Shown here one piece after another: positions 21,915-46,631 of a stretch of DNA of 48,580 bases. The position numbers and the translations under genes were made by a program. The stretch comes from Blautia sp. GTDB taxonomy: Bacteria; Bacillota; Clostridia; Lachnospirales; Lachnospiraceae. The notes beneath the pieces are model-generated. The model did no database searches, was not told the origin of the DNA, and saw only the letters and a program-made list of their open reading frames with translations. How positions within the stretch are numbered: the first letter of the stretch is position 1; every line of letters begins with the position of its first letter. The stretch lies in NCBI GenBank assembly GCA_017459635.1, contig JAFUCO010000051.1:1-48580 (forward strand), read 5' to 3'.

Positions 21915-21997
21915 AACACAGGAGACGGTTCTCTGTGCACTTCAGCACAAGAATTATTCCCTGTGCAGTTCAGCACACAGAACCGTCCCCTGTGCAC
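21915..21997. repeat. variant palindromic repeat (GTGCAC subfamily)
   Basis: Left and right arms carry CAGGAGACGGTTCTCTGTGC and ACAGAACCGTCCCCTGTGC, separated by about 35 bases with two further CAGCACA/TGTGC units. It is a degenerate member in which GTCTTA arms are replaced by GTGCAC arms. It lies between the SRP RNA terminator and birA. Confidence 0.8.
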
Positions 21998-26789: not shown

Positions 26790-27860
26790 CTATGACAATT
26801 CATCCTTCAGATCACATACCCGGTTATTTGCTGTAAAGGAATCAAACAATGGAACAGTCTGTTCGAGGTCACCGGCTCCGACCAGGAAACCGACTTTATG
26901 AGATTCTTCTATTTCTTCGAGAAAGAACTCATATCCGATCAGTGCAAGGTCGTGTCTTGCTTCCTCAAATGTTTTGTACCTTTCTGCGGGATCGAACGCT
27001 GTCATCTTCTGTATAATACGATAAAGATCTTTCATCTCTTCCGGGAATCTCTGGATAAGCTGGGGTACAGGGAATGCCTCTCCGGACATTCTCTTCTCAA
27101 ATGCCTCCTGTTTTGTCCGGACCGGTAAAAAAGGAGGTGTACAACGGTTCAATATCCAGTAAAGGACCATGCCTGCACTATATATGGCAGACTGCACACT
27201 GTATTTTCTGTCCCTCCAGACCTCCGGAGCCATAAAGCTTTCGACACCTGTCAGTTCATTATACTCTTCTGCCTCACAAAGCTTCAGGGCTGAGCCGAAA
27301 TCTCCGATCTTTACTTTTTTTTCGTCATAGTAGATATTGCCCGGATGAACATCTATGTACAGTATTCCGGCTTTCTGAATCTGAATCAGTGAATCAAGGA
27401 TCCCTGTTCCGATATGGACAACTGTAAGCGGATACAGCTCCTCCACTGAAAGGTATTCGTTCAGCGGTCTTTCCATTTCTTCCAGCAACGAAACCGTCTT
27501 TCTGTCCGGATCAATATCGCAGTCGAGCATCCATACTATTCCCGGCCTGCCTCGCAGAAGCTCTGCTGTTTCGCATTCTCTGACGGCGCGTCTGAACAGT
27601 TCCTCATTGTCCCTGCAGCAGATCACTTTCAGGCATACCTCCGGGGTTCTGCGCGTGACTGTTTTGAATATTTTCAGATCAGGCCGGTCTATCACTTTCT
27701 TCATCCACTGCGCATATGGCCTGAATTTTTCGGGTATTTCATCAGTAATATCATTCATTAGCGGAAGCGGCGGCCATTCCGGCTGTACTTTAGGCCTGAA
27801 TGGTTCATAGTCCGCTTCATCCACGAAAAAGCGTCCTATTGTTCTTTCGGTTTCTTCCAT
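26790..27860 (-). CDS. Hanks-type protein kinase-like protein
   Basis: 356 residues from the ATG at 27860 (AGGAGG about seven bases upstream). A 65-residue N-terminal part is followed by a kinase fold: candidate ATP lysine in PEVCLKVI, a candidate helix C glutamate in VRECETAELL, catalytic loop YIDVHPGNIYY (Asp and Asn kept, HRD changed to YID), KIGDFGSALKL (DFG) and MAPEVW (APE). No glycine-rich loop is visible before the lysine. The C-terminal 50 residues include HKVGFLVGAGDLEQTVPLFD and no transmembrane helix, so it is cytosolic, unlike PASTA kinases. It is the third gene of a cassette with HPr-kinase-like and PqqD-like genes. Its target is unknown. Confidence 0.8.
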   Translation of the reverse strand: MEETERTIGRFFVDEADYEPFRPKVQPEWPPLPLMNDITDEIPEKFRPYAQWMKKVIDRPDLKIFKTVTRRTPEVCLKVICCRDNEELFRRAVRECETAELLRGRPGIVWMLDCDIDPDRKTVSLLEEMERPLNEYLSVEELYPLTVVHIGTGILDSLIQIQKAGILYIDVHPGNIYYDEKKVKIGDFGSALKLCEAEEYNELTGVESFMAPEVWRDRKYSVQSAIYSAGMVLYWILNRCTPPFLPVRTKQEAFEKRMSGEAFPVPQLIQRFPEEMKDLYRIIQKMTAFDPAERYKTFEEARHDLALIGYEFFLEEIEESHKVGFLVGAGDLEQTVPLFDSFTANNRVCDLKDELS

Positions 27861-27894
27861 TTTCTCCCCTCCTGTCATAAACGAAGCATAACCA

Positions 27895-28155
27895 TTACTC
27901 GTCGATAGCTCCGATTTTCCGCAGTTCTGTCAATGCCTTCTTTACATCACGGGTGATCACTTCTTCCGGTGCGTCAAAACGTGCTTTCATGGCGGTAATG
28001 ATATTCTCTTCAGTAGTATCATGCTTAAGCAGCTCCAGGATCACTCCCAGTGTCCTGTTCCCTTTTACCAGCCCGGCAAAGTTCGCAGCTCCGGTCGGCA
28101 CCAGCAGGGAGTCAGATCCGGTATCGTGTGTTATGTATTCTTTATTCAGCTTCAT
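27895..28155 (-). CDS. PqqD-family peptide-binding protein
   Basis: 86 residues from the ATG at 28155, chosen because GGAGGA lies seven bases before it; an ATG at 28161 directly abuts the ribosome site. The pattern MKLNKEYITHDTGSDSLLVP, then NRTLGVILELLKHDTTEENI, fits PqqD, whose members are recognition elements that hold peptide substrates for modifying enzymes. It follows the HPr-kinase-like gene with no gap, the ribosome site being inside that gene. No radical SAM partner or classic precursor peptide is seen beside it. Confidence 0.85.
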   Translation of the reverse strand: MKLNKEYITHDTGSDSLLVPTGAANFAGLVKGNRTLGVILELLKHDTTEENIITAMKARFDAPEEVITRDVKKALTELRKIGAIDE

Positions 28156-28157
28156 GT

Positions 28158-28862
28158 TCATTCCTCCTTCATAGTGTTGTAGGATATCTCCGCTGCCTCG
28201 CTTTCCATATTGCAGCCCAGACGGTACAATTTCACATTCAGCCGGTCGATCAGCTTCAGCGTTTTTGATAATGCCTCAGGATCTGCCGGGCGGTATATCT
28301 GCCGGAGCAGCATTGGAAATGCCTCTTCTTTTGTGATCTGCCGGATATGGTTCTCTGCTGATCTTTCAAGGATGCAGACAGAACGCACCGGAGCGGCGAT
28401 GTTTCTGCTCAGATGATGCTTTCCGTCCCATGGTGTGCCGTATGCCGCAGCTGTCCCGTCGGAGTGCACCCTGATAAATGGCTTATCGTCATTTATCATG
28501 ACAGCCCTGTCACCCAGCAGCTCACGCCACAGCCGCGCATGTGTGCTTTTTCCCGTGCCGCTTGCCGCGGTAAAAATGTATGCCGCCCCATCAACTGCGA
28601 TGGCTGACCCATGGAGCAAACAGGCATCGTACTGCGGCATTCTCTCTGCGATCTTTCGATAGACAGCCAGAGTTTCCAGGTAAGCGTCCGAAAAGCCGGA
28701 ATGCTCGGCGCGGGAGCGCTCATAGTCGATATCCTTCTGTTCTATAATAACAGCAAAATCAGCGGGTTCATCCGTACGGTAATCCTTACAGTATAAATTG
28801 ACAGCCTCATTGATATAAGTGATTCTGATGTTCACATCCGCAAATCGATAACAGTTTGTCAT
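28158..28862 (-). CDS. HPr-kinase-like P-loop protein
   Basis: 234 residues from the ATG at 28862. About 95 N-terminal residues of unknown fold precede LLHGSAIAVDGAAYIFTAAS and the P-loop GTGKSTH, then MINDDKPFIRV (acidic site) and YGTPWDGKHHL. This is the HPr kinase/PEP-carboxykinase-like fold seen in stand-alone HprK-like proteins that accompany PqqD proteins in peptide-modification loci. It is too short for a true HPrK and lacks that enzyme's usual N-terminal domain. It likely phosphorylates a peptide or small molecule. It has its own promoter and leads the three-gene cassette. Confidence 0.8.
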   Translation of the reverse strand: MTNCYRFADVNIRITYINEAVNLYCKDYRTDEPADFAVIIEQKDIDYERSRAEHSGFSDAYLETLAVYRKIAERMPQYDACLLHGSAIAVDGAAYIFTAASGTGKSTHARLWRELLGDRAVMINDDKPFIRVHSDGTAAAYGTPWDGKHHLSRNIAAPVRSVCILERSAENHIRQITKEEAFPMLLRQIYRPADPEALSKTLKLIDRLNVKLYRLGCNMESEAAEISYNTMKEE

Positions 28863-28902
28863 TCTGATCTTAACCTCTTGCGTTTTCAAGTGTCTGTTAC
28901 TA

Positions 28903-28932
28903 ATTGTACATAATGTGCAAATCCATTGTCAA
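28903..28932 (-). promoter_or_regulatory. promoter of the HPrK-like/PqqD/kinase cassette
   Basis: On the minus strand TTGACA and TACAAT are 18 bases apart, about 40 bases before the HPrK-like ATG. The remainder of 28933-29097 shows no gene. Confidence 0.7.
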
Positions 28933-29097: not shown

Positions 29098-29153
29098 AAC
29101 AGGGGACGGTTCTCTGTGCACTTAAAAGTGCACAGAGAACCGTCCCTTGTGTT
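29098..29153. repeat. palindromic repeat, GTGCAC subfamily
   Basis: AACAGGGGACGGTTCTCTGT and its complement, joined by GCACTTAAAAGTGC. One base differs between arms (CCCTTGT against CCCCTGT). It lies directly after the acidic repeat protein gene and probably ends that transcript. Confidence 0.9.
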
Positions 29154-29172: not shown

Positions 29173-29598
29173 TCAGTCAAGTCCAAAATCGCTGCAGTCA
29201 TAGTTGTCTGCATCTGCATATGGGTTCTCGTAGTCTTCATCGATCATGAAGTCATCTTCTTCGATTTTGGAGTTTTCGATGTCTTCAGTCTCTTCGGTTT
29301 CTTCAGTCTCTTCTTCCATACCAAAATCGCTGCAGTCATAGTTATCCGGATCCGCTTCAGGATTCTCGTAATCCTTGTCGATCATGTCGTCTTCTTCATC
29401 GTCCGCTTCAGTTTCTTCAGTCTCTTCTTCCAGACCGAAATCGCTGCAGTCATAATCTCCCGGGTTTGCTTCGGGGTTATCATAATCAACATCTATAAGT
29501 ATCTCATCATCCGGCAGTGCCTCCGCACCTGCTGAAACAGCTGTAAGTCCAATAATGGCCGCTGCTACTCCACTGATGATAAAATGTTTAACTCTCAT
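29173..29598 (-). CDS. secreted acidic protein with three YDCSDFG repeats
   Basis: 141 residues from the ATG at 29598, which has CAGGAGGA nine bases upstream. A signal peptide (MRVKHFIISGVAAAIIGLTA) ends near AGA-E. The mature part is three copies of one module: DYDNPEANPGDYDCSDFG, DYENPEADPDNYDCSDFG and DYENPYADADNYDCSDFG, separated by linkers rich in Glu, Thr and Asp (EEETEETE). Each module has a single cysteine. The third ends the protein at FGLD. I do not recognise the family. It is strongly acidic, secreted, and lies beside the PqqD cassette but behind a separate hairpin. It could bind metal, be wall-associated or be a substrate of the neighbouring enzymes. Confidence 0.8.
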   Translation of the reverse strand: MRVKHFIISGVAAAIIGLTAVSAGAEALPDDEILIDVDYDNPEANPGDYDCSDFGLEEETEETEADDEEDDMIDKDYENPEADPDNYDCSDFGMEEETEETEETEDIENSKIEEDDFMIDEDYENPYADADNYDCSDFGLD

Positions 29599-33828: not shown

Positions 33829-36486
33829 TTAATTGTCTGCTTTTTTATAGAGTGCCTCAAGCATTTCCGGTGTTACCGAACCGGTTTGATTGTAAATGAT
33901 TTCACCCTTTCGGTTCAGCACTATCGTCTGCGGCAGTGTGGACGAGGCGCCGACAATGTTCCATATCAGCTTATCTTCGGTATCTGTGGCAAACGGAATA
34001 TCCCATTTGTTATTATTTACATATTCGACCGGGTCATCCAGCACAAAGGAATCATGTACGGCAAGTACCGCAATGTCTCCTTCATGAGCCTTGTACAGAT
34101 CGCAGAAGAATGGAAGCTCTTTGACACAGGCCGTGCAGTGTGTTGCCCACAGGTTTATAAATGTTATCTTTCCGCGGGTATCCTTAAGGTTAAACTCGCT
34201 GCCGTCAAAGAGTTTGACAGAGAAATCTTTAAGCTGCATACCTACTTCCTGTCCGACCGGAGCCGTGCTCTCAAAGTTCTCAGCGCTGCCAACGCTGTCG
34301 GCTGTTCCTGCGTCCTTGCTGTCTGTGGACTCTGTGTCTTTACTGTCCGTTGCTTCTGCCGCCTTGCTGTCGGCAGCATCAGCGTCTTTACTGTCCGTTG
34401 CTTCTGCCGCCTTGCTGTCGGCAGCATCAGCGTCTTTACTGTCTGATGCTTCTGCTGCTTTGCTGTCGGCAGCATCAGCGTCTTTGCTGTCTGATGCTTC
34501 TGCCGCTTTGCTGTCGGAAGCACCTGTGTCTTTGTTGTCTGTGGTCTCAGAGCCTTTATTGTCGGCGGGTTCGGTATCCTTGGTTTCTAATGTCCCAGCA
34601 CTCTTCGGCACAGCCTCATCTGCCTTCTTATAAAGTGACTCCAGCACTTCCGGTGTTACCGAGCCTGACTGGTTGTAGATCACATCGCCCTTGCGGTCCA
34701 GTACTATCGTCTGCGGCAGTGTTGATGAAGCCCCGACAATATCCCATATCAGTTTGTCTTCGGTATCTGTTGCAAATGGTATATCCCATTTGTTTTTATT
34801 CACGTATTCGACCGGATCATCAAGCACAAAAGAATCATGTACAGCGAGTATCTCGATTTCTCCTTCATGCGCCTTGTACAGGTCGCAGAAGAACGGGAGT
34901 TCTTTGACGCATGCTGTGCAGTGTGTTGCCCAAAGGTTTATGAATGTTATCTTTCCGCGGGTATCCTTAAGATTAAACTCGCTGCCGTCAAAGCGTTTGA
35001 TTGAGAAATCCTTAAGCTGCATGCCCACTTCATTTCCGATCGGAGCTGTGCTTTCAAAGCTTTCAGCGCCTGTATTTTCAGTGCTATCTGTTGAAGCAGA
35101 AGCTCCTACAGCTTTGCTGTCACTGTCTCCTGTATTCTCAGAACTGTTGGCAGATTTGCCGCCGTCTCCTGTATTCTCAGAACCATTAGCAGCTTTGCCG
35201 TCACTGTCCCCTTTATCCTCAGAGCTGTCCGCAGCTTTGCCGTCGCTGTCCCCTTTATCCTCAGAGCTGTCCGCAGCTTTGCCGTCGCTGCTTTCTGAAC
35301 TCTCAGCTTTTTCTGTTTCTCCGGAAACTCCGGCTTCTTTACCGTCACCGCCTGACGGAGCGCCGCCAGATTCTGTTCCGCTGCTCTTTTCGGTGCTCTC
35401 AACTGTCTCACTTGCGACAGTATTTTCCTCCGCAGATGCATGACGGGCTTTTACCGTCGGATCCAGGAAATTAAACCATATCAAAGCAAAAACGAGAACT
35501 GCGGCTGCAACTAACGAGATCAGCCGGCTGGTGCCTTTGCTGATGGTCTTCTGTGCAGGCATTTCTTCAGTACTGCCGGAACCACCGTTCTTTGGAGCCG
35601 TTACCTGCGGAGCCATCAGTGTAATCTTTCCTGCCTTCATGGAAATTGCCTTCTGGTGGCAGACTTCCATACATTTTCCGCAGTTTATGCACTCATGATC
35701 TCCGACACGCTTTACATCCATGCCGCAGTGGCTCACACAGAGGCCGCAGCCGTTGCAGCGGTTCATATCCACTTTTACACCAACCAGACAGTACTTGTTG
35801 AAGATACCGTAGATGGCTCCCAGCGGGCAGACGAACCTGCAGAAGCTCCTGTAGCAGAAGATGCATGCAAGTATGATGATCAGAAGTATAACAAATTTAC
35901 GTGTAAAAAAGATCCCCAGCATGCTGAATTTGCTGCTGTTTACCGGGTTTGACAGAAGGCCGATTGCGCCTTCAAATGTTCCGGCCGGGCAGATAAATTT
36001 GCAGAATCCCGGCATAGGCAGATCATGTTTAATGCCATAATAGAGCGGTATCGCCAGGGCAAATACTGCCAGGAAAACATACTTGCAATATGAAAGAAAC
36101 CGCGTCACGCGGTTTTTCTTTATCTTGTAGGTCGGGATGTGATGCAGAAGCTCCTGCACCAGTCCAAGCGGACAAAGCCATCCGCATATTGTACGGCCAA
36201 GTATTATGCCGAAAAGCATCAGCATGCCGAACACATAAAACCCTGCGCGGTGCCCTGAGGATGCCAGCGCATTCTGTAATGCGCCAAGCGGACATGCTCC
36301 CACTGCTCCCGGACATGAATAGCAGTTAAATCCAGGCACACAGGCATATTTGACCTTGCCCTGGTATATTTCTCCATCAATAAAGCCTCTCAGGTGCGCA
36401 TTGTAAAGAAGAGCACTGTACAGCTGTATAAGCCGGCGTTTTGATGGTTTGTGCCTTTGCCACCAGTTTTCTGTTACTGTTTCCAT
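33829..36486 (-). CDS. NapH-like membrane polyferredoxin fused to two thioredoxin-like domains
   Basis: 885 residues. Residues 1-300 are a NapH/CcoG-like membrane ferredoxin: CVPGFNCYSCPGAVGACP, TICGWLCPLGLVQELL, CKFICPAGTFEGA, SFCRFVCPLGAIYG and a cytosolic pair of 4Fe-4S sites (CNGCGLCVSHC, CINCGKCMEVCHQKA). A last membrane helix lies near residue 330. Outside follow a Ser/Asp/Lys-rich repeat linker, redoxin domain one (about 475-620), a second 16-residue-repeat linker and redoxin domain two (about 740-885). Both redoxins read NLWATHCTACVKELPFFCDL with a CTAC active site and are almost identical. The protein could pass electrons from a cytoplasmic or membrane donor across the membrane to extracellular disulfides. 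Confidence 0.88.
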   Translation of the reverse strand: METVTENWWQRHKPSKRRLIQLYSALLYNAHLRGFIDGEIYQGKVKYACVPGFNCYSCPGAVGACPLGALQNALASSGHRAGFYVFGMLMLFGIILGRTICGWLCPLGLVQELLHHIPTYKIKKNRVTRFLSYCKYVFLAVFALAIPLYYGIKHDLPMPGFCKFICPAGTFEGAIGLLSNPVNSSKFSMLGIFFTRKFVILLIIILACIFCYRSFCRFVCPLGAIYGIFNKYCLVGVKVDMNRCNGCGLCVSHCGMDVKRVGDHECINCGKCMEVCHQKAISMKAGKITLMAPQVTAPKNGGSGSTEEMPAQKTISKGTSRLISLVAAAVLVFALIWFNFLDPTVKARHASAEENTVASETVESTEKSSGTESGGAPSGGDGKEAGVSGETEKAESSESSDGKAADSSEDKGDSDGKAADSSEDKGDSDGKAANGSENTGDGGKSANSSENTGDSDSKAVGASASTDSTENTGAESFESTAPIGNEVGMQLKDFSIKRFDGSEFNLKDTRGKITFINLWATHCTACVKELPFFCDLYKAHEGEIEILAVHDSFVLDDPVEYVNKNKWDIPFATDTEDKLIWDIVGASSTLPQTIVLDRKGDVIYNQSGSVTPEVLESLYKKADEAVPKSAGTLETKDTEPADNKGSETTDNKDTGASDSKAAEASDSKDADAADSKAAEASDSKDADAADSKAAEATDSKDADAADSKAAEATDSKDTESTDSKDAGTADSVGSAENFESTAPVGQEVGMQLKDFSVKLFDGSEFNLKDTRGKITFINLWATHCTACVKELPFFCDLYKAHEGDIAVLAVHDSFVLDDPVEYVNNNKWDIPFATDTEDKLIWNIVGASSTLPQTIVLNRKGEIIYNQTGSVTPEMLEALYKKADN
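34318..34533. repeat. 48-bp tandem repeat in the second linker of the fusion gene
   Basis: GCTGTCGGCAGCATCAGCGT or near matches begin at 34366, 34414, 34462 and 34510, exactly 48 bases apart. They encode the 16-residue unit DSKAAEASDSKDADAA. Copy number could vary by slippage without breaking the frame. Confidence 0.9.
35111..35300. repeat. about 42-bp tandem repeat in the first linker of the fusion gene
   Basis: GCTTTGCCGTCGCTGTCCCC and diverged copies recur every 39-42 bases, encoding units such as SDGKAADSSEDKGD. This array is older and more diverged at its left end than the 48-bp array. Confidence 0.8.
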
Positions 36487-39513: not shown

Positions 39514-39565
39514 AGCATAGCACATTTCATCTTAATTCACAAGCATTTGTTTTAGTTCTAAAACA
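39514..39565 (-). promoter_or_regulatory. promoter and palindromic operator of the XRE regulator
   Basis: TTGTGA (39542-39537) and TATGCT (39519-39514) on the minus strand are 17 bases apart. Just upstream lies TGTTTTAGTTCTAAAACA (39548-39565), an eight-base inverted repeat with a two-base centre, a plausible site for the regulator. Confidence 0.6.
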
Positions 39566-39591
39566 TCAGGTGTGATAAGAATGGCTGGCTC

Positions 39592-39617
39592 ATACCATAT
39601 CCAGTCTGGGCCAGCCA
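39592..39617 (-). terminator. terminator-like hairpin after the wall-anchored protein gene
   Basis: TGGCTGGCT pairs with GGCCAGCCA across eight bases; on the minus strand TTCTTATC follows. A moderate terminator. Confidence 0.55.
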
Positions 39618-39650
39618 CATTCTTTTATCGAGACCAGCTCTTCCATAAAA

Positions 39651-42600
39651 TCAAATGATATCTTGCTTTCTCTTCCTCATCATCAGACCTGCTCCGGCGA
39701 TGCCTGTGAGCATGATGCCGAGGAGGTAGATTAGGTTGGTGCCCGGGCCTCCGGTATTCGGAAGGGCTGCTCCGGGAGTATTTGGAATAACCAGGGTATC
39801 CTTGTTTGTCCCTTCCACACTTATTCCGGTCATCTCAAGGTCAAAGGTATCATCATCAGAATCAGCCGAGGTCTTTAACGTTATCACTTCTCCTTCACCG
39901 GAAGCATTAACTGTAAAGAAAATATCTCTTGCCAGAATTATGTATCCGTCAGGAGCTTTCGTCTCAGTAAGCTTATAATCCCCGGATGGAAGACCTTCTA
40001 CTTTGATTACTCCCTCTGTCAGCTCAAGCACTTTATCGGCTTTTGCAGCCTCGATCTCCTCATCCGAAACATATGCACCATGGATGTTCTTATGATACAG
40101 CTTGAATGTGGCTCCCTTAAGCGGAACCGTACTGCCGCTCTTTACCTTTTTCAGAGTAATATCCGTTATCTTCCGGGTGTTCGTGAATGTCACTGTGATG
40201 TTGTCTGTAACGGTAATGCTGTCCGTCTTTATGCCTGTCTTAACCACTGAATCTTCCTGAGAATCTCCGACCTTTACAGTATATGTGGTTGAGAATCTTT
40301 TATCAGCTGTTTCCTCCACTGTAAATGTGGTGCCATAGGGGATGTCCGCAAAAACAATCTGATGCGGTTGTGTTATTACCTTCTTATCCCCCTCCATTTC
40401 GGATTTTTCGGCCCCATACAGAGAGAATTTCTTATCCGTCAGGCTCTCCGCTGAAAATTCGAAAGGAATATCATTGTCCCCCTCAAGGCCGTCCACGTTC
40501 TTGATCACTGTAACGTGGGCAAGCTTTCGGGTGTTGTTGATAGTGATCGTATAGACATCCTCATCTTCCGAATACTCAATTTCAGCCATGTCCCCTTCCG
40601 CTGCTGACAGTGTAACCCCACTCGAAGTGACAGTAAGTCCAACAGGCTTTTTCAGGCCTTCATAGTATTCCGGAGCAGTGGTCTCAGTAAGGGTATATTT
40701 TCCTATCGGAAGTTCAAATTCACGGATGGTAGTTGCATCGTCTCCCTCACCTCTCACCAGCACTGCAGAACCGTCTGGCATTGATGTTATCCCGGTAATA
40801 TCCGTGAAGCCTTCTACTACTCCATCTGCTGTCAGGCTGAACACTGCACCGGTCAGGCCATCAGGGGTATCGTTTCCGATCTTTCTGATCCGTATCTTAC
40901 GGTCGCGCTTGTTGGGTATCTGAGTTATTTCTTCTGATTCTCCAACTTTCCTGATGGAATATTTTGTAGTAAAGCTATTTGTTCCGGTCTCTGTGTTTTC
41001 CGATATCTGGTCGAGCTCAAGTACGACCTCATATACCTGGTTAGAAAGCACATAACCCTTTGGAGCGGCGGTTTCCTTCATATAGTAGGTTCCGATGGGG
41101 ATATTGGAGAATTCAACCAGCCCCGTTTCCGCAGCCGAAGCTGTCACTGTTTCCTGCCCGTTTATGTCTTTTGCAGGTGTCTCGCAGGTTTCATCCGTAT
41201 AAAGCCGGAAAACAGCTCCAGGCAGAGCATTCATTTCCTCATCGACTTTACTGAAGCTCACTGAACCTGCAATCCGCTCATAGGCGTTAGTGATACTCAA
41301 ATCATAATTATAGGAGTCCGACCACTCGCTGGTATCACCGCTATGTGTCTCAACAGTAATGGTATTGTCCTTCACTGTGAGCACATACCCATCGATCTGC
41401 GCACTATTTCCGTTATAGCCATCCTCCAACATTTCCAACTCGACGATGGTATACTCACCCGAAGGGAAATAATCGAAGCCCGAGAGATTGAATTCTGCCT
41501 CCCACTGTCCATTGTTTCCATTGTAGTTGAAAGACGGAGAAATGATCACCGCGGCACTGACATCCTGTACCCATGACAGCTTTTCATAGCGCATGGTTGC
41601 CGGATTGAAGGCCGGTGTAGGATTGAGCCCCGCATAGTAGCCGGCTTTATTCAGGATCACAAAATGAAGGTTGCTAAGTTTCTCGGCGTTAGCCTGGAAG
41701 TCATCATCAGTCAGCCCGGCCACCTTCTTCGTGAGCTTAACAAGCTTACCTTCGGCACCGCGACGATACTTGTTCTGGATGCGGACCTCATACAAAGGAT
41801 CGTTCGCATTGACATTCATACTTTCCGTCCGAGTCGCCGTAACCGTTGTCGGTCGTGTGCTTCCGATATTCCATTGCTGCCCATTATCAGGCGTGATGTT
41901 CACCAGATAATAATTATAGGCTTCAAGCAGCTCGAACTCGCCGGATTCCTGGAAGGTAATCGTACTGCCGTTATACCCTTCCGGCGCATAGAGGCCGGTG
42001 TAGTAGGGGATGTCTTCCAATGTCAGAGAGAAAGTCGTTACTCCTTGTACGGGCTCGAAATCACTGAGTTTATAATACCTGACCTCTCCCGTAGGAAGCG
42101 TCACCGTGAAGGACAGTTTCTCTTGTGTTGCTTTGTCCGTCTTGAAGTACTCATAGGTCATCGCCTGTTCGTCACCATTGTTCGGCTGAAAGTCAAAGTG
42201 CTTGTCCAAACGTACGGACATGGTTAGTTTGCGGTTATAAATCGTTCCACCAGAGTTTTCAAGATATTCATCCGGTCCATACGCGTCATTGTTCTGACTT
42301 TTCTGCTTCCATGGATAATACCCGTCCGGTGTCGCTGCAGTCTCTTTCACCACGTAAGTGATCCGATTCCCCTGATCATTTAATCTAGGCAAATTACCAA
42401 AGTTTGCATGCCAAGGCTCATCTTCCATGAAATCGGCTTCCGTTTCATCAGTATGGCCATCAAGCGTAATAGAACCAATCGGGTCAGCCTCTATCTGGCC
42501 ATTAATCTTTCTGTACAGAGACAGTGTTGCAGTGGCATTATCCGGCATCTCTTCAGAAGATATTTCATTTGCCTGCCGATCAATCCACACTTTATTTACT

Positions 42601-45600
42601 TCGAATTTGATCGGAGTTTCGTCTTCTTTGGCATAAGTGTTCGTAAGTGTAACTTCATCTGTCGGGTCAGCCTCAGAAACGAATGCATTGTTATTGCCGG
42701 TAATACTCTTAACCGCAAAATTTGCAGCCGGATTAGCTCCCTGAATCGGAAATACATCACTCACACCCAGGCGGCTGCCTGTAGTATTCTTCAGTTCCCA
42801 GACATTATAATCGCCGTCTTCCAGGCCATCAAAGACCACTGTCTCAGGAGTTGGAACACCATTAATAATCCGGATCTCCTTTACCAGGATGTTCCCGTCC
42901 TCGTCCCGGACATAGGTCTCTTTATCTTCTTTAGTCAAAGCAATATAGATGCTGTGATTGACCTGTTCCTTCGCAAGGCTTCCTTCTACGGAAACGTTCT
43001 TGGTGAATCTAATCTTGTATGAAGTCCATACAGCATAAAGTGTATTTCCCTCCGGATCATCTATGCCATATGTTCCACCCAGTTCATATTTAACTATCTC
43101 ATTATCCGCCGCATCCTTGTCATCATTCCAGCCAATCAGATGATAGTTCTTTCTGGAAAATCCGGTTCCCCTGCTGAGTTCCAGTCTGGAATTCAGTTCC
43201 AGCTTTGTAATCTCATTAGTTCCATAAACCGCATCCTCGCTTTCTGCAGCTGTTCCATTGAGATCAGTAAGAGTTCCTGTACCTCCATTAGCATCATAGG
43301 ACAGAGTTGTTACATCAAGCTGTTTATACACAGCCGTCAGTGTGTATATATACTTCGGGTTACTTGTATCCGTTCCATCCTCCAGGTTCGCCAATGTAGA
43401 GTGTATCGTAATCGTATCATTTGGCTGAACGATTTCACCAGCAGGCGTTTTCCAGCCGACAAAAGTATAGTTCTGAGGTACTTTTGTAGGCGCAGAGCCT
43501 ACGATTGCCTGCGAAAGATCTCCATAGGTATATAACGTTGTCGGCGGCACTTCAGCATCAGGTGCACCAGGCAGTACGATCTCGTTTCCTTCCTCATCGT
43601 ACATGTTTTTATCATAGCCGACTCGGAAAGAACCAACTCGTTTCCATATAGCCCGGATCGCCAAAGGTTCTTTCACCGGCGTATTGAAATTCCAGAGCGT
43701 CAGTTCGTCACTCTCCAATATGGCTGGCGGAACCTCTTCGCTGATCTCTCCACCGACACGGTACCAGCCTACGAAATCATAAACGCCTTTCTGATAGGTA
43801 TACTTCTTTCCATCAGTGTGTTCACGCTCATCATAAACATCATTGATAATGTTGCCGTTCTCATCTTCTTTCTGAAGTGTAATCACTCCAAGTTCTGATG
43901 TTTTCTTGTAATACGCTACACGCGCCTGATCATGGTTTTCCGGATCACAGATATAAATATAACTGTATTCGCCGTCATCTGATGCATAATAATCACGGCC
44001 GGTAATTTCCACATCGCTGTATTCCTGAATCAGGTCACCGTAATCAGACCGGAAGAAAGTCGACTCTGTAGGACTCAGTATGCCTCCGTTGGGTTGAACC
44101 CATACGCGGAAACGCTGTTTCTCCCACCCCGCATAGAGGACAAGGTTGTTAGCCGGCATTGTCTCTGTCGAAAAATCAAACAGATTCTTGCAATCCGGAT
44201 CCGTATACCAGCCTGTAAATGAATAACCCTCATGGGTAACATCCGGTGAACCGGGATCCACATTCTCCAGTGAACTTCCATAAAGAACACTTGCAGGATC
44301 TGCCAGTTCCGTATTGCTGTGACTGAAACCATCCAGGAAGTCTATCGTATAAATGTTGCGGTCATACCGGATCTCCAGGTCTGAAAAACCGCTTTGAATA
44401 TATTGATAGCCGTACGAATTTGGATCAGCATCATAATAGTAGCTTCCGCTCTGCAGCATCAGTTCTCCCGGCTGAATCCAGGAAGACCATACACCATTTC
44501 GTCTGGTGCGGTATTCAGCAATGTGAAAGCCATTATACTTATCCGTAAGGTTAAACGAAGAATTATTCGTAGATGTTACAGTTCCACCGTTTGGCAGAGA
44601 GTATGTCTCTCCATTCACGTCCTGCTGATAGAAGCGAATGCTGGAAGTACCCGAACCGGTATTGCCGTAATAATTTACCTCCGTGCTGGTTCCGGCAGGA
44701 AGGAAAGCGTCAAGGAATGTAGTTCTGGTTCCGTTTCCTGTGCTTCCACTATATCCTGAATACCACCAGTATTCAGATGGCCATTCACCGTTTAGTGAGG
44801 AACCATAAAGGCCGGTCATCGTCTTCCAGATGTACCAGCGGGTTCCGGCTGCAGTTTGAGTCTGCTGATAGAATGTACCATTATATTCATTTCCATCAGG
44901 GGTGTACCAGGTATAGGTTGTAGTAGTTTCAGTTCGCCAGTATAGAGAGTCATAACTCCAGCGCCACCGCCAGCCGTCCCAGTATCTGTAATAGTACGTT
45001 TTTCTTGTACTATATGGCTCAGTTGCCTGAACATAATATCCGTTTCTGATCTCATATACTGTATCGGTATACTCAGGAGCGCCATTATAATTATACTCAG
45101 AGAGGTAAGCTCTTGTTGAGGTACTTGATGTTCTTGTCAGTACAACTTTAGTTCCCTGATAATCTCCATAAACGTCTGTTCTGTTATTGTAATTTGTATT
45201 AGCTGTGCTTTCATTTATTACCGTATAATTCGTCGTTGCCCCGGTTGTCCCATAAAGATAGAAGTTAAATGTAATGATCTTCCTGTCATAGTAAACATAC
45301 AGAACCGTACTGCCATCTGCCGCTATAGTTGTGTTGGCGTCACATCTGGCATAATTGAAACCATCGTAATTCAAGTTCTTATACTGGTTTGGCACAGAAG
45401 CAGTGCTCCCGGTTGTTCCATGCAGCGTGTAAGAAGTCTCGTAATCATACGTTTTCTCATCTGCTGTTGCCGTAACACTGTCTGAAATCCTCTGCTTCAA
45501 AATTACAACAGTATATGTCTGGTCTGACGGGATCCAGTTGGCGTACAGCGTAACATCTCCTGTCAAATGTGTGTTCATATTGAACTCTGTAGTACATTCT

Positions 45601-46631
45601 GGATCGGTATACCAACCGCCAAACTCATAACCAGGCCTGGTTGATTCCGGAAGGGATGTATGCCTGTCTGATACCTTATCGTCTGTCTGAAGTACCCATA
45701 CAGGTGCTGTATAGGTTGCCTTTGAGGTGCCGCCGGCATCGTTTTTATCAAAATTGATCCAGAAAACTTTAGCCTTAGCCGGATATACTTCTATCTTTTT
45801 GTCTGCATCACCTGCGAAATCCACCTGAGTCACAGTATCTAACGAACGATCTTCCAGAGACCACCCCATAAAAGCTTCTTCACTATCATCCGGCTGATAA
45901 GTGATCCTGTATTCCCCATTATCTGTCAGGCTGGCAGTTTTTCCACTCATAGTAAAATCGCCATTTACAGAACTCTCGGTTTTATAAACATTGTGATGCT
46001 CGTCATAATACTCAATGTAATAGACTTCTTCATATCTGGGATAAAGCTTAACTTCTGAACCCGTTCCGGTAATCCCGGTAATTACAATGCTCTCCGTGCC
46101 TGGTTCAAGGATAATTGTTCCATTTTCATCTGCCCAGCCGACAAACTGTTTTCCATCTACTTGTTCAGCAGGTGCATCAGGGTTGTAGAGTAATCCTCCC
46201 TCTGTTACGTATTGTACAGAAGTATTCTCACCCTCCTTGTTCACAAAGGTATAATCCGTTGTAAATGTACCGTCTGTGTAAAACAGATATTTACGTGAAA
46301 CAGTACCTGAAGGATCTGTTTCTGCGGTATCAGCAATAGCATACACACTAAATCCGCCCGCTGCAAAGCTCACAGTCTGCCCGATATGTTCAGCATCTAC
46401 TATATCCCCTGCGGTATTCTCATCTGCAAAGTGCACGACGTTCAGCTGCTCACTTTCGCTGTCTGCCAGTTCAATCTTAACAGATACCGTGGTGCCCTCC
46501 CGTGGCTGATACTTCACGTTGGGGTTATCTTTATCTACGATTTTGATATCAAACAGGCGAATATACTTCGCGCTGCCTTTTTGCATGCCAAGCGCATTCT
46601 CGGTGCTTTCCACATAAGTATTATAAAGCAA
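39651..46631 (-). CDS. giant wall-anchored InlB/CnaB repeat protein, 5'-truncated
   Basis: The frame from a TTG at 46631 gives 2326 residues. The end has a sortase motif LPNTG, a hydrophobic span (NLIYLLGIMLTGIAGAGLMM) and RKRK. Residues about 1-1200 contain InlB-type repeats (RPGYEFGGWYTDPECTTEF, THEGYSFTGWYTDPDCKNLF) and a Tyr/Trp-rich block near 460-640. Residues about 1200-2280 hold at least five CnaB/SpaA-like domains with their E-box-like ends (VVKETAATPDGYYP, YYMKETAAPKGYVL, YKLTETKAPDGYII), which form internal isopeptide bonds. No signal peptide is present, and the frame stays open upstream to a TGA at 46799 with no start codon. The N-terminal part has been lost, so the gene is probably not exported or not expressed. 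Confidence 0.85.
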   Translation of the reverse strand: MLYNTYVESTENALGMQKGSAKYIRLFDIKIVDKDNPNVKYQPREGTTVSVKIELADSESEQLNVVHFADENTAGDIVDAEHIGQTVSFAAGGFSVYAIADTAETDPSGTVSRKYLFYTDGTFTTDYTFVNKEGENTSVQYVTEGGLLYNPDAPAEQVDGKQFVGWADENGTIILEPGTESIVITGITGTGSEVKLYPRYEEVYYIEYYDEHHNVYKTESSVNGDFTMSGKTASLTDNGEYRITYQPDDSEEAFMGWSLEDRSLDTVTQVDFAGDADKKIEVYPAKAKVFWINFDKNDAGGTSKATYTAPVWVLQTDDKVSDRHTSLPESTRPGYEFGGWYTDPECTTEFNMNTHLTGDVTLYANWIPSDQTYTVVILKQRISDSVTATADEKTYDYETSYTLHGTTGSTASVPNQYKNLNYDGFNYARCDANTTIAADGSTVLYVYYDRKIITFNFYLYGTTGATTNYTVINESTANTNYNNRTDVYGDYQGTKVVLTRTSSTSTRAYLSEYNYNGAPEYTDTVYEIRNGYYVQATEPYSTRKTYYYRYWDGWRWRWSYDSLYWRTETTTTYTWYTPDGNEYNGTFYQQTQTAAGTRWYIWKTMTGLYGSSLNGEWPSEYWWYSGYSGSTGNGTRTTFLDAFLPAGTSTEVNYYGNTGSGTSSIRFYQQDVNGETYSLPNGGTVTSTNNSSFNLTDKYNGFHIAEYRTRRNGVWSSWIQPGELMLQSGSYYYDADPNSYGYQYIQSGFSDLEIRYDRNIYTIDFLDGFSHSNTELADPASVLYGSSLENVDPGSPDVTHEGYSFTGWYTDPDCKNLFDFSTETMPANNLVLYAGWEKQRFRVWVQPNGGILSPTESTFFRSDYGDLIQEYSDVEITGRDYYASDDGEYSYIYICDPENHDQARVAYYKKTSELGVITLQKEDENGNIINDVYDEREHTDGKKYTYQKGVYDFVGWYRVGGEISEEVPPAILESDELTLWNFNTPVKEPLAIRAIWKRVGSFRVGYDKNMYDEEGNEIVLPGAPDAEVPPTTLYTYGDLSQAIVGSAPTKVPQNYTFVGWKTPAGEIVQPNDTITIHSTLANLEDGTDTSNPKYIYTLTAVYKQLDVTTLSYDANGGTGTLTDLNGTAAESEDAVYGTNEITKLELNSRLELSRGTGFSRKNYHLIGWNDDKDAADNEIVKYELGGTYGIDDPEGNTLYAVWTSYKIRFTKNVSVEGSLAKEQVNHSIYIALTKEDKETYVRDEDGNILVKEIRIINGVPTPETVVFDGLEDGDYNVWELKNTTGSRLGVSDVFPIQGANPAANFAVKSITGNNNAFVSEADPTDEVTLTNTYAKEDETPIKFEVNKVWIDRQANEISSEEMPDNATATLSLYRKINGQIEADPIGSITLDGHTDETEADFMEDEPWHANFGNLPRLNDQGNRITYVVKETAATPDGYYPWKQKSQNNDAYGPDEYLENSGGTIYNRKLTMSVRLDKHFDFQPNNGDEQAMTYEYFKTDKATQEKLSFTVTLPTGEVRYYKLSDFEPVQGVTTFSLTLEDIPYYTGLYAPEGYNGSTITFQESGEFELLEAYNYYLVNITPDNGQQWNIGSTRPTTVTATRTESMNVNANDPLYEVRIQNKYRRGAEGKLVKLTKKVAGLTDDDFQANAEKLSNLHFVILNKAGYYAGLNPTPAFNPATMRYEKLSWVQDVSAAVIISPSFNYNGNNGQWEAEFNLSGFDYFPSGEYTIVELEMLEDGYNGNSAQIDGYVLTVKDNTITVETHSGDTSEWSDSYNYDLSITNAYERIAGSVSFSKVDEEMNALPGAVFRLYTDETCETPAKDINGQETVTASAAETGLVEFSNIPIGTYYMKETAAPKGYVLSNQVYEVVLELDQISENTETGTNSFTTKYSIRKVGESEEITQIPNKRDRKIRIRKIGNDTPDGLTGAVFSLTADGVVEGFTDITGITSMPDGSAVLVRGEGDDATTIREFELPIGKYTLTETTAPEYYEGLKKPVGLTVTSSGVTLSAAEGDMAEIEYSEDEDVYTITINNTRKLAHVTVIKNVDGLEGDNDIPFEFSAESLTDKKFSLYGAEKSEMEGDKKVITQPHQIVFADIPYGTTFTVEETADKRFSTTYTVKVGDSQEDSVVKTGIKTDSITVTDNITVTFTNTRKITDITLKKVKSGSTVPLKGATFKLYHKNIHGAYVSDEEIEAAKADKVLELTEGVIKVEGLPSGDYKLTETKAPDGYIILARDIFFTVNASGEGEVITLKTSADSDDDTFDLEMTGISVEGTNKDTLVIPNTPGAALPNTGGPGTNLIYLLGIMLTGIAGAGLMMRKRKQDII

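Follow-up and report, generated by a model that had tools for sequence, protein, structure and literature searches.

A candidate peptide-phosphorylation module with an added Hanks-type kinase in a Blautia draft genome

Three minus-strand genes lie in a row on a 48.6 kb contig, which was analysed at its full length and is called the window here, and encode in turn an HprK-like kinase, a PqqD-type protein and a Hanks-type kinase. On balance, we consider it probable that they form a reduced peptide-phosphorylation module resembling those that make linear polyphosphorylated peptides (LPPs), with the substrate encoded elsewhere and a Hanks kinase recruited to the locus. The HprK/PqqD pair is of a known kind and probably active; what sets the locus apart is the added Hanks kinase. 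In the mechanism we propose, the PqqD protein would act as the discrete RiPP recognition element and hold a leader of the YxxP type, and the HprK-like kinase would phosphorylate a serine near the start of the peptide's core. As substrate we envisage a short peptide with YxxP or a diverged version of one. The locus would have lost its leader peptidase, exporter and nucleotidyltransferase, and the likeliest target of the Hanks kinase would be that substrate or the HprK/PqqD pair itself.

The name LPP cluster dates from 2026 (PMC13381572); as described there, such clusters comprise the HprK-like kinase LppK, the recognition element LppB, the SipW-like LppS (of the archaeal-type signal peptidase I type), the exporter LppD and the NTP transferase LppN. 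In Paenibacillus, LppK is reported to place several phosphates on one precursor serine, and LppB to bind a YxxP leader through residues N33, Y60 and D70 (PMC13381572). By a word search, the main text of that paper names neither Clostridia nor Lachnospiraceae nor radical SAM proteins.

Organization of the locus

The HprK-like kinase (LppK-like; P0003) is encoded at 28158..28862 on the minus strand, with 234 residues from its ATG and the P-loop SGTGKST. Its stop is overlapped by 4 bases by the start of the gene for the PqqD-type RiPP recognition element (LppB-like; P0002; 27895..28161, minus strand, 88 aa), and the gene for the Hanks-type Ser/Thr kinase (P0001; 26790..27878, minus strand, 362 aa) begins 16 bases beyond that. 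All three reading frames are open, and a GDSL hydrolase gene follows downstream. A promoter-like site (TTGACA-18-TACAAT; 28903..28932, minus strand) ends 41 bases before the HprK ATG, and the three genes would share one transcript behind this single good site. The initial annotation had described just such a row under one promoter, its first two genes coupled, and the 4-base overlap and lone promoter-like site agree with it.

Upstream, about 310 bases containing the promoter-like site and a perfect palindrome of 20 pairs (29103..29146, either terminator-like or a small repeat element) part the HprK gene from that of an acidic repeat protein of 141 aa (29173..29598, minus strand), which has a signal-peptide-like start by eye and three repeats of the form DYxNPxA...YDCSDFG. 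The GGGACGGTTCTCTGTGCAC palindromes at 29103-29146 and 21922-21989 of the window are one perfect pair and one degenerate pair and may represent a small repeat element. Elsewhere, the window encodes a 2326 aa surface protein with SpaA, Cna_B and Listeria-Bacteroides repeats (39651-46631). The source genome is an incomplete draft of 2.67 Mb that is 66.8% complete, so absences from it are weak evidence.

The HprK-like kinase and its recognition partner

By sequence, the HprK-like protein is a weak match to Pfam, yet its fold and catalytic residues are HprK-like. Pfam Hpr_kinase_C scores below its cut-off (11.7 bits vs 33.3) and a PDB sequence search returned only two rows (E 0.15 and 0.4), but the predicted structure, made from a 27-sequence alignment, has a pLDDT of 96.8, and the structures it matches best are those of PEPCK and HPr kinase/phosphatase. 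In a numbering that starts at the TTG at 28889 rather than at the ATG, the residues of catalytic type are His93, Lys114, Asp134 and Asp135, a putative active-site set that fits the His-Lys-Asp-Asp set which lasso peptide kinases are reported to require (PMC9266682). Every row of the 27-row HprK alignment has Asp134; the residue lies outside the columns at least 75% alike in the wider set of 82 HprK rows, window included; at those columns the window protein keeps the common residue in 37 of 37.

The recognition protein is above the Pfam PqqD cut-off (E 4e-9) and below that of the PQQ-synthesis PqqD model, NCBIfam TIGR03859 (20.9 bits vs 46). A PDB sequence search with it gave no match, the LppB entry named in PMC13381572 included. 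Placed by equal spacing rather than by direct comparison with the LppB letters, N35, F62 and D72 of the window protein fall on the leader-binding LppB residues N33, Y60 and D70; two pocket positions are small in the window protein, with Gly34 and Ala76 in place of LppB Leu32 and Phe74. The one other PqqD-like match in the genome, on contig C106, is the N-terminal part of a SCIFF maturase and is above that model's cut-off. By analogy, the window pair would work like LppK and LppB.

Relatives of the kinase indicate what may once have surrounded it. The window protein is 56-58% identical to the HprK proteins of loci L039-L042, which carry peptidase and nucleotidyltransferase genes, and in the HprK tree it pairs (97/97) with that of L159, a locus with no PqqD seen. 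Of the next neighbors by path (L157, L040, L173, L128 and L042), four of five have cluster genes. A loss of genes from a full cluster at the window locus is likely rather than firm, since the tree leaves its deeper forks near the window open; its bootstrap, moreover, had yet to converge. The same genome has a second HprK-like gene (L033, 7338-8090, contig C83), which lies beside a YitT-type gene with none of the sought partners within 6 kb; congener HprK genes L136 and L141, on the same branch, have flanking genes of like length.

Pairing of HprK and PqqD among relatives

HprK matches were found in 58 of 250 family genomes and 23 of 64 congeners (own genome included in each), and at 30 loci in genome_contigs. 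The neighborhoods covered, a part of all matches, number 86: the window plus 35, 20 and the 30 genome_contigs loci. A scored HprK row exists for 85 of them, the exception being L049, in which HprK is fused to a radical SAM domain, and 83 clear a threshold of E 1e-40 with the HprK model made for this analysis. On the same strand and within 6 kb of HprK, these 83 loci have PqqD in 53, signal peptidase in 39, nucleotidyltransferase in 28, ABC exporter in 25, radical SAM in 19, a kinase in 1 (the window) and none of the sought partners in 20, although the loci are not independent samples, having been picked by HprK similarity, with several per genome and many cut by contig ends. Among the 55 loci with at least 4 kb on both sides, the corresponding counts are 42, 27, 23, 20, 15, 1 and 9. 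In 41 of the 83, PqqD lies within 200 bases of HprK on the same strand. The recurrent pairing, together with the phosphorylation of a precursor by LppK with LppB (PMC13381572), supports the early assignment of these two proteins to peptide phosphorylation. Seven of the 83 loci, window included, have PqqD but no peptidase, exporter, nucleotidyltransferase or radical SAM, most clearly L170, L171 and L178. The one relatives' peptidase compared with NCBIfam had archaeal signal peptidase I as its best match, below the cut-off (27.9 bits vs 51.85).

Many Clostridia, several of them from rumen or gut samples, carry the HprK and recognition-element pair. HprK is also tied to radical SAM proteins, by loci that hold both and by a single frame in which the two are fused. 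The fused frame of L049 (695-2560, plus strand) joins an HprK-like domain, 40% identical to P0003, and a radical SAM domain in 621 aa; a YxxP peptide of 78 aa and a PqqD gene come after it. At L165, L167, L168 and L169, HprK is accompanied by a radical SAM frame, by a signal peptidase and by a roughly 240 aa protein, with no PqqD found; L167 also has a precursor-like ORF without YxxP. HprK or precursor loci are adjoined by very large proteins, several of which seem by eye to have an export signal, in L041, L042, L170, L171, L163, L157 and, in the source genome, contig C58 (L188, 11818-19914); those of L041, L042, L170 and L171 form one family.

Precursor-like peptides

Several of the relatives' loci encode short peptides that combine YxxP with D(V/I)I.TS at a fixed spacing. 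Written as (Y/W)..P.(V/I/L/M/A)........(D/E).(I/L/V).(T/S/A/G)(S/A/G/T) in frames of at most 250 residues, the motif was found 18 times in the 1,151,944 bases of the 86 loci, window among them, a count that is partly fitted because the motif was first read off some of the same loci. Ten Markov shuffles gave 0-5 matches (mean 1.2), and 135,281 bases around kinases gave none. No motif peptide lies in the window. Among loci with a scored HprK there are 17 such peptides, 16 of them on the HprK strand, at distances of 392 to 7,478 bases; those with YxxP peptides near HprK are L036, L043, L045, L049, L054, L057 and L066, together with L127, L128, L131, L162, L176, L181 and L184.

A precursor model built from 16 motif-peptide leaders matched 26 of 397 family genomes, own included. 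Fifteen other matched genomes were also in the 250-genome HprK search, and all 15 have HprK, against a base rate of 58/250; when the seven genomes that gave model rows are left out, which is the sole held-out test of the motif, HprK is present in eight of eight. The comparison points to the short YxxP peptides of relatives as likely substrates of the HprK/PqqD pair, and their short motif of fixed spacing opens the way to direct substrate tests. Four precursor-like peptides, three from relatives and one from contig C58, had no NCBIfam match, nor did P0004.

Other candidates were set aside. Searching 56 loci with a pattern close to the published LPP consensus yielded three ORFs that look like chance matches, and looser patterns gave single chance-looking matches in the window at 39532-39618 and inside a redoxin gene near 34788. 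Small acidic proteins with a hydrophobic start, which adjoin HprK in L039, L044 and L054, are too varied to judge as substrates.

A recruited Hanks-type kinase

P0001 is above the Pfam kinase cut-off, and its Pkinase domain has the Lys, the catalytic Asp/Asn, DFG and APE. It has no glycine at residues 16-95, and the Pfam match begins at profile position 22. By these features it is a predicted Hanks-type kinase with catalytic residues and without a glycine-rich loop; a single-sequence structure model is poor (pLDDT 38.8). Matches were found in 37 of 250 family genomes (E 1e-12), 56 of 64 congeners and 5 of 392 order genomes (E 1e-22), own genome included in each, and a genome_contigs pattern search gave 58 matches, none a relative. 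Besides P0001 itself, the matches listed are mostly parts of long frames and align to roughly residues 78-350 with 28-41% identity; they are therefore read as generic Hanks kinases. No ortholog was found among the 250 family, 64 congener and 392 order genomes or in genome_contigs. The PHROGs match is likewise a generic kinase, and a role in defence was rejected because the PADLOC matches (mad6 and PD-T4-6, in a scan of four cassette proteins) fall within the kinase core.

Two of 85 loci, the window and L036, have a kinase within 6 kb of HprK. L036 combines HprK, radical SAM, PqqD, nucleotidyltransferase, peptidase, exporter and kinase, with a precursor-like peptide between PqqD and the kinase, and shows that Hanks kinases can sit in such clusters. 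Across 235 aligned columns the L036 kinase and P0001 share 29% identity, no more than generic kinases do, and for this reason the two look like separate recruitments. P0001 is a lineage-specific, rare addition that belongs to no conserved cassette and is linked to HprK and PqqD by position alone. The initial annotation's view of an operon, and in principle of peptide phosphorylation, stands, but its expectation that the three families would be found together elsewhere does not, given the two loci of 85 and the missing ortholog. Nor did searches of the open-access PMC literature turn up the combination of PqqD, HprK and Hanks kinase.

Weighing the alternatives

It is conceivable, though unlikely, that the locus is a decaying LPP-like remnant in which HprK and PqqD have simply persisted, the kinase lies beside them by chance and no modification takes place. 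No archaeal-type signal peptidase I, MsbA-like ABC exporter or NTP_transf_5 lies within 6 kb of the window HprK, the window holds no precursor, and the genome has no NTP_transf_5 at E 0.1; its sole signal peptidase match is below the cut-off and looks like a housekeeping enzyme beside a ribosomal protein gene (names by eye). The rarity of kinases near HprK and the 20 HprK loci without any sought partner are in keeping with decay. Against this, all three frames are open, every well-conserved HprK column is kept, the spacing is tight (an overlap and a 16-base gap) downstream of a good promoter-like site, and similar two-gene pairs recur in L170, L171 and L178. If the pair does work without peptidase and exporter, it would show a minimal phosphorylation unit. 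A quite improbable elaboration is a two-kinase phosphopeptide pathway, in which the recognition element would present one substrate, either a YxxP peptide encoded in trans or the 29173-29598 repeat protein, to the HprK-type and then the Hanks-type kinase; the product would leave by the general secretion route, so that dedicated peptidase and exporter would not be needed.

The two more specific proposals concern the substrate. That the HprK/PqqD pair serves a radical SAM/precursor locus in trans, giving a radical SAM and phosphorylation pathway spread over two loci, strikes us as distinctly unlikely. The precursor model has a sole match in this genome, a 39 aa ORF on contig C58 (E 6.2e-7), which adjoins the gene for a radical SAM protein of 459 aa. 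Ten radical SAM frames, spread over nine HprK loci, share 28-33% identity with that protein; relatives L176 and L131 bring HprK, radical SAM, PqqD and a precursor-like peptide together, and L049 has HprK and radical SAM in one frame. The C58 peptide keeps F...DII.TSG but has YEEL, with no proline, in place of YxxP, and the genome has a second HprK, on C83. Because L165, L167, L168 and L169 combine HprK and radical SAM with no PqqD found, a C58-like subtype may not need PqqD at all. One condition that would count against the initial annotation, a pairing of PqqD with a radical SAM system elsewhere in the genome, is half borne out: a radical SAM gene lies beside a precursor-like peptide, but no PqqD was seen adjoining it. 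Phosphorylation of the exported repeat protein by the pair is highly improbable. Its gene is the next one upstream on the same strand, and each repeat has Y(D/E)NPxA and then YDCSDFG, that is, YxxPxA plus a serine. But the motif is short (shuffling one repeat unit yields YxxPxA in 4.5% of cases), several unrelated ORFs nearby carry one of its type, the D(V/I)I.TS part is lacking and no relative turned up in 343 other genomes; with the intervening 310 bases, palindrome and promoter-like site, the repeat protein is a weak candidate, not clearly in the HprK transcription unit. We favor instead the reduced module with a substrate elsewhere.

Comparison with known systems

Hanks kinase domains in a peptide-modification setting are shared with class III/IV lanthipeptide synthetases and TOMM kinase-cyclases, as modeled in NCBIfam. 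P0001 differs as a stand-alone kinase far under the cut-offs of these models (LanL 31.8 vs 650 bits, LanKC 23.6 vs 575, TOMM 30.2 vs 705.75). The SynChlorMet cassette contains an HprK-like protein, ScmC, together with a PqqD-like protein; the ScmC model gives the window HprK-like protein 25.9 bits against a cut-off of 125. The paeninodin-type lasso peptide kinases PadeK and ThcoK with their B1 partners, as described in PMC9266682, share with the window an HprK-like kinase with the His-Lys-Asp-Asp set and a PqqD-type partner. Neither a lasso asparagine-synthase-like cyclase nor a B2 protease is among the eight window neighbors scanned.

LPP clusters, as described in PMC13381572, share with the window an HprK-like kinase and a discrete recognition element, with no macrolactam cyclase among the window neighbors scanned; where the window's relatives have fuller clusters, the additional genes are the same as in LPP clusters. 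The core cluster described there has neither radical SAM protein nor cyclase, which leaves the earlier proposal that the Hanks kinase stands in for one unsupported; what is missing at the window locus is instead the peptidase, the exporter and the nucleotidyltransferase. Having counterparts of LppK and LppB only, the locus is not filed as an LPP cluster. It differs from one in that counterparts of LppS, LppD and LppN and a consensus precursor are absent, and in that a Hanks kinase has been added to a kinase and recognition-element pair of established type.
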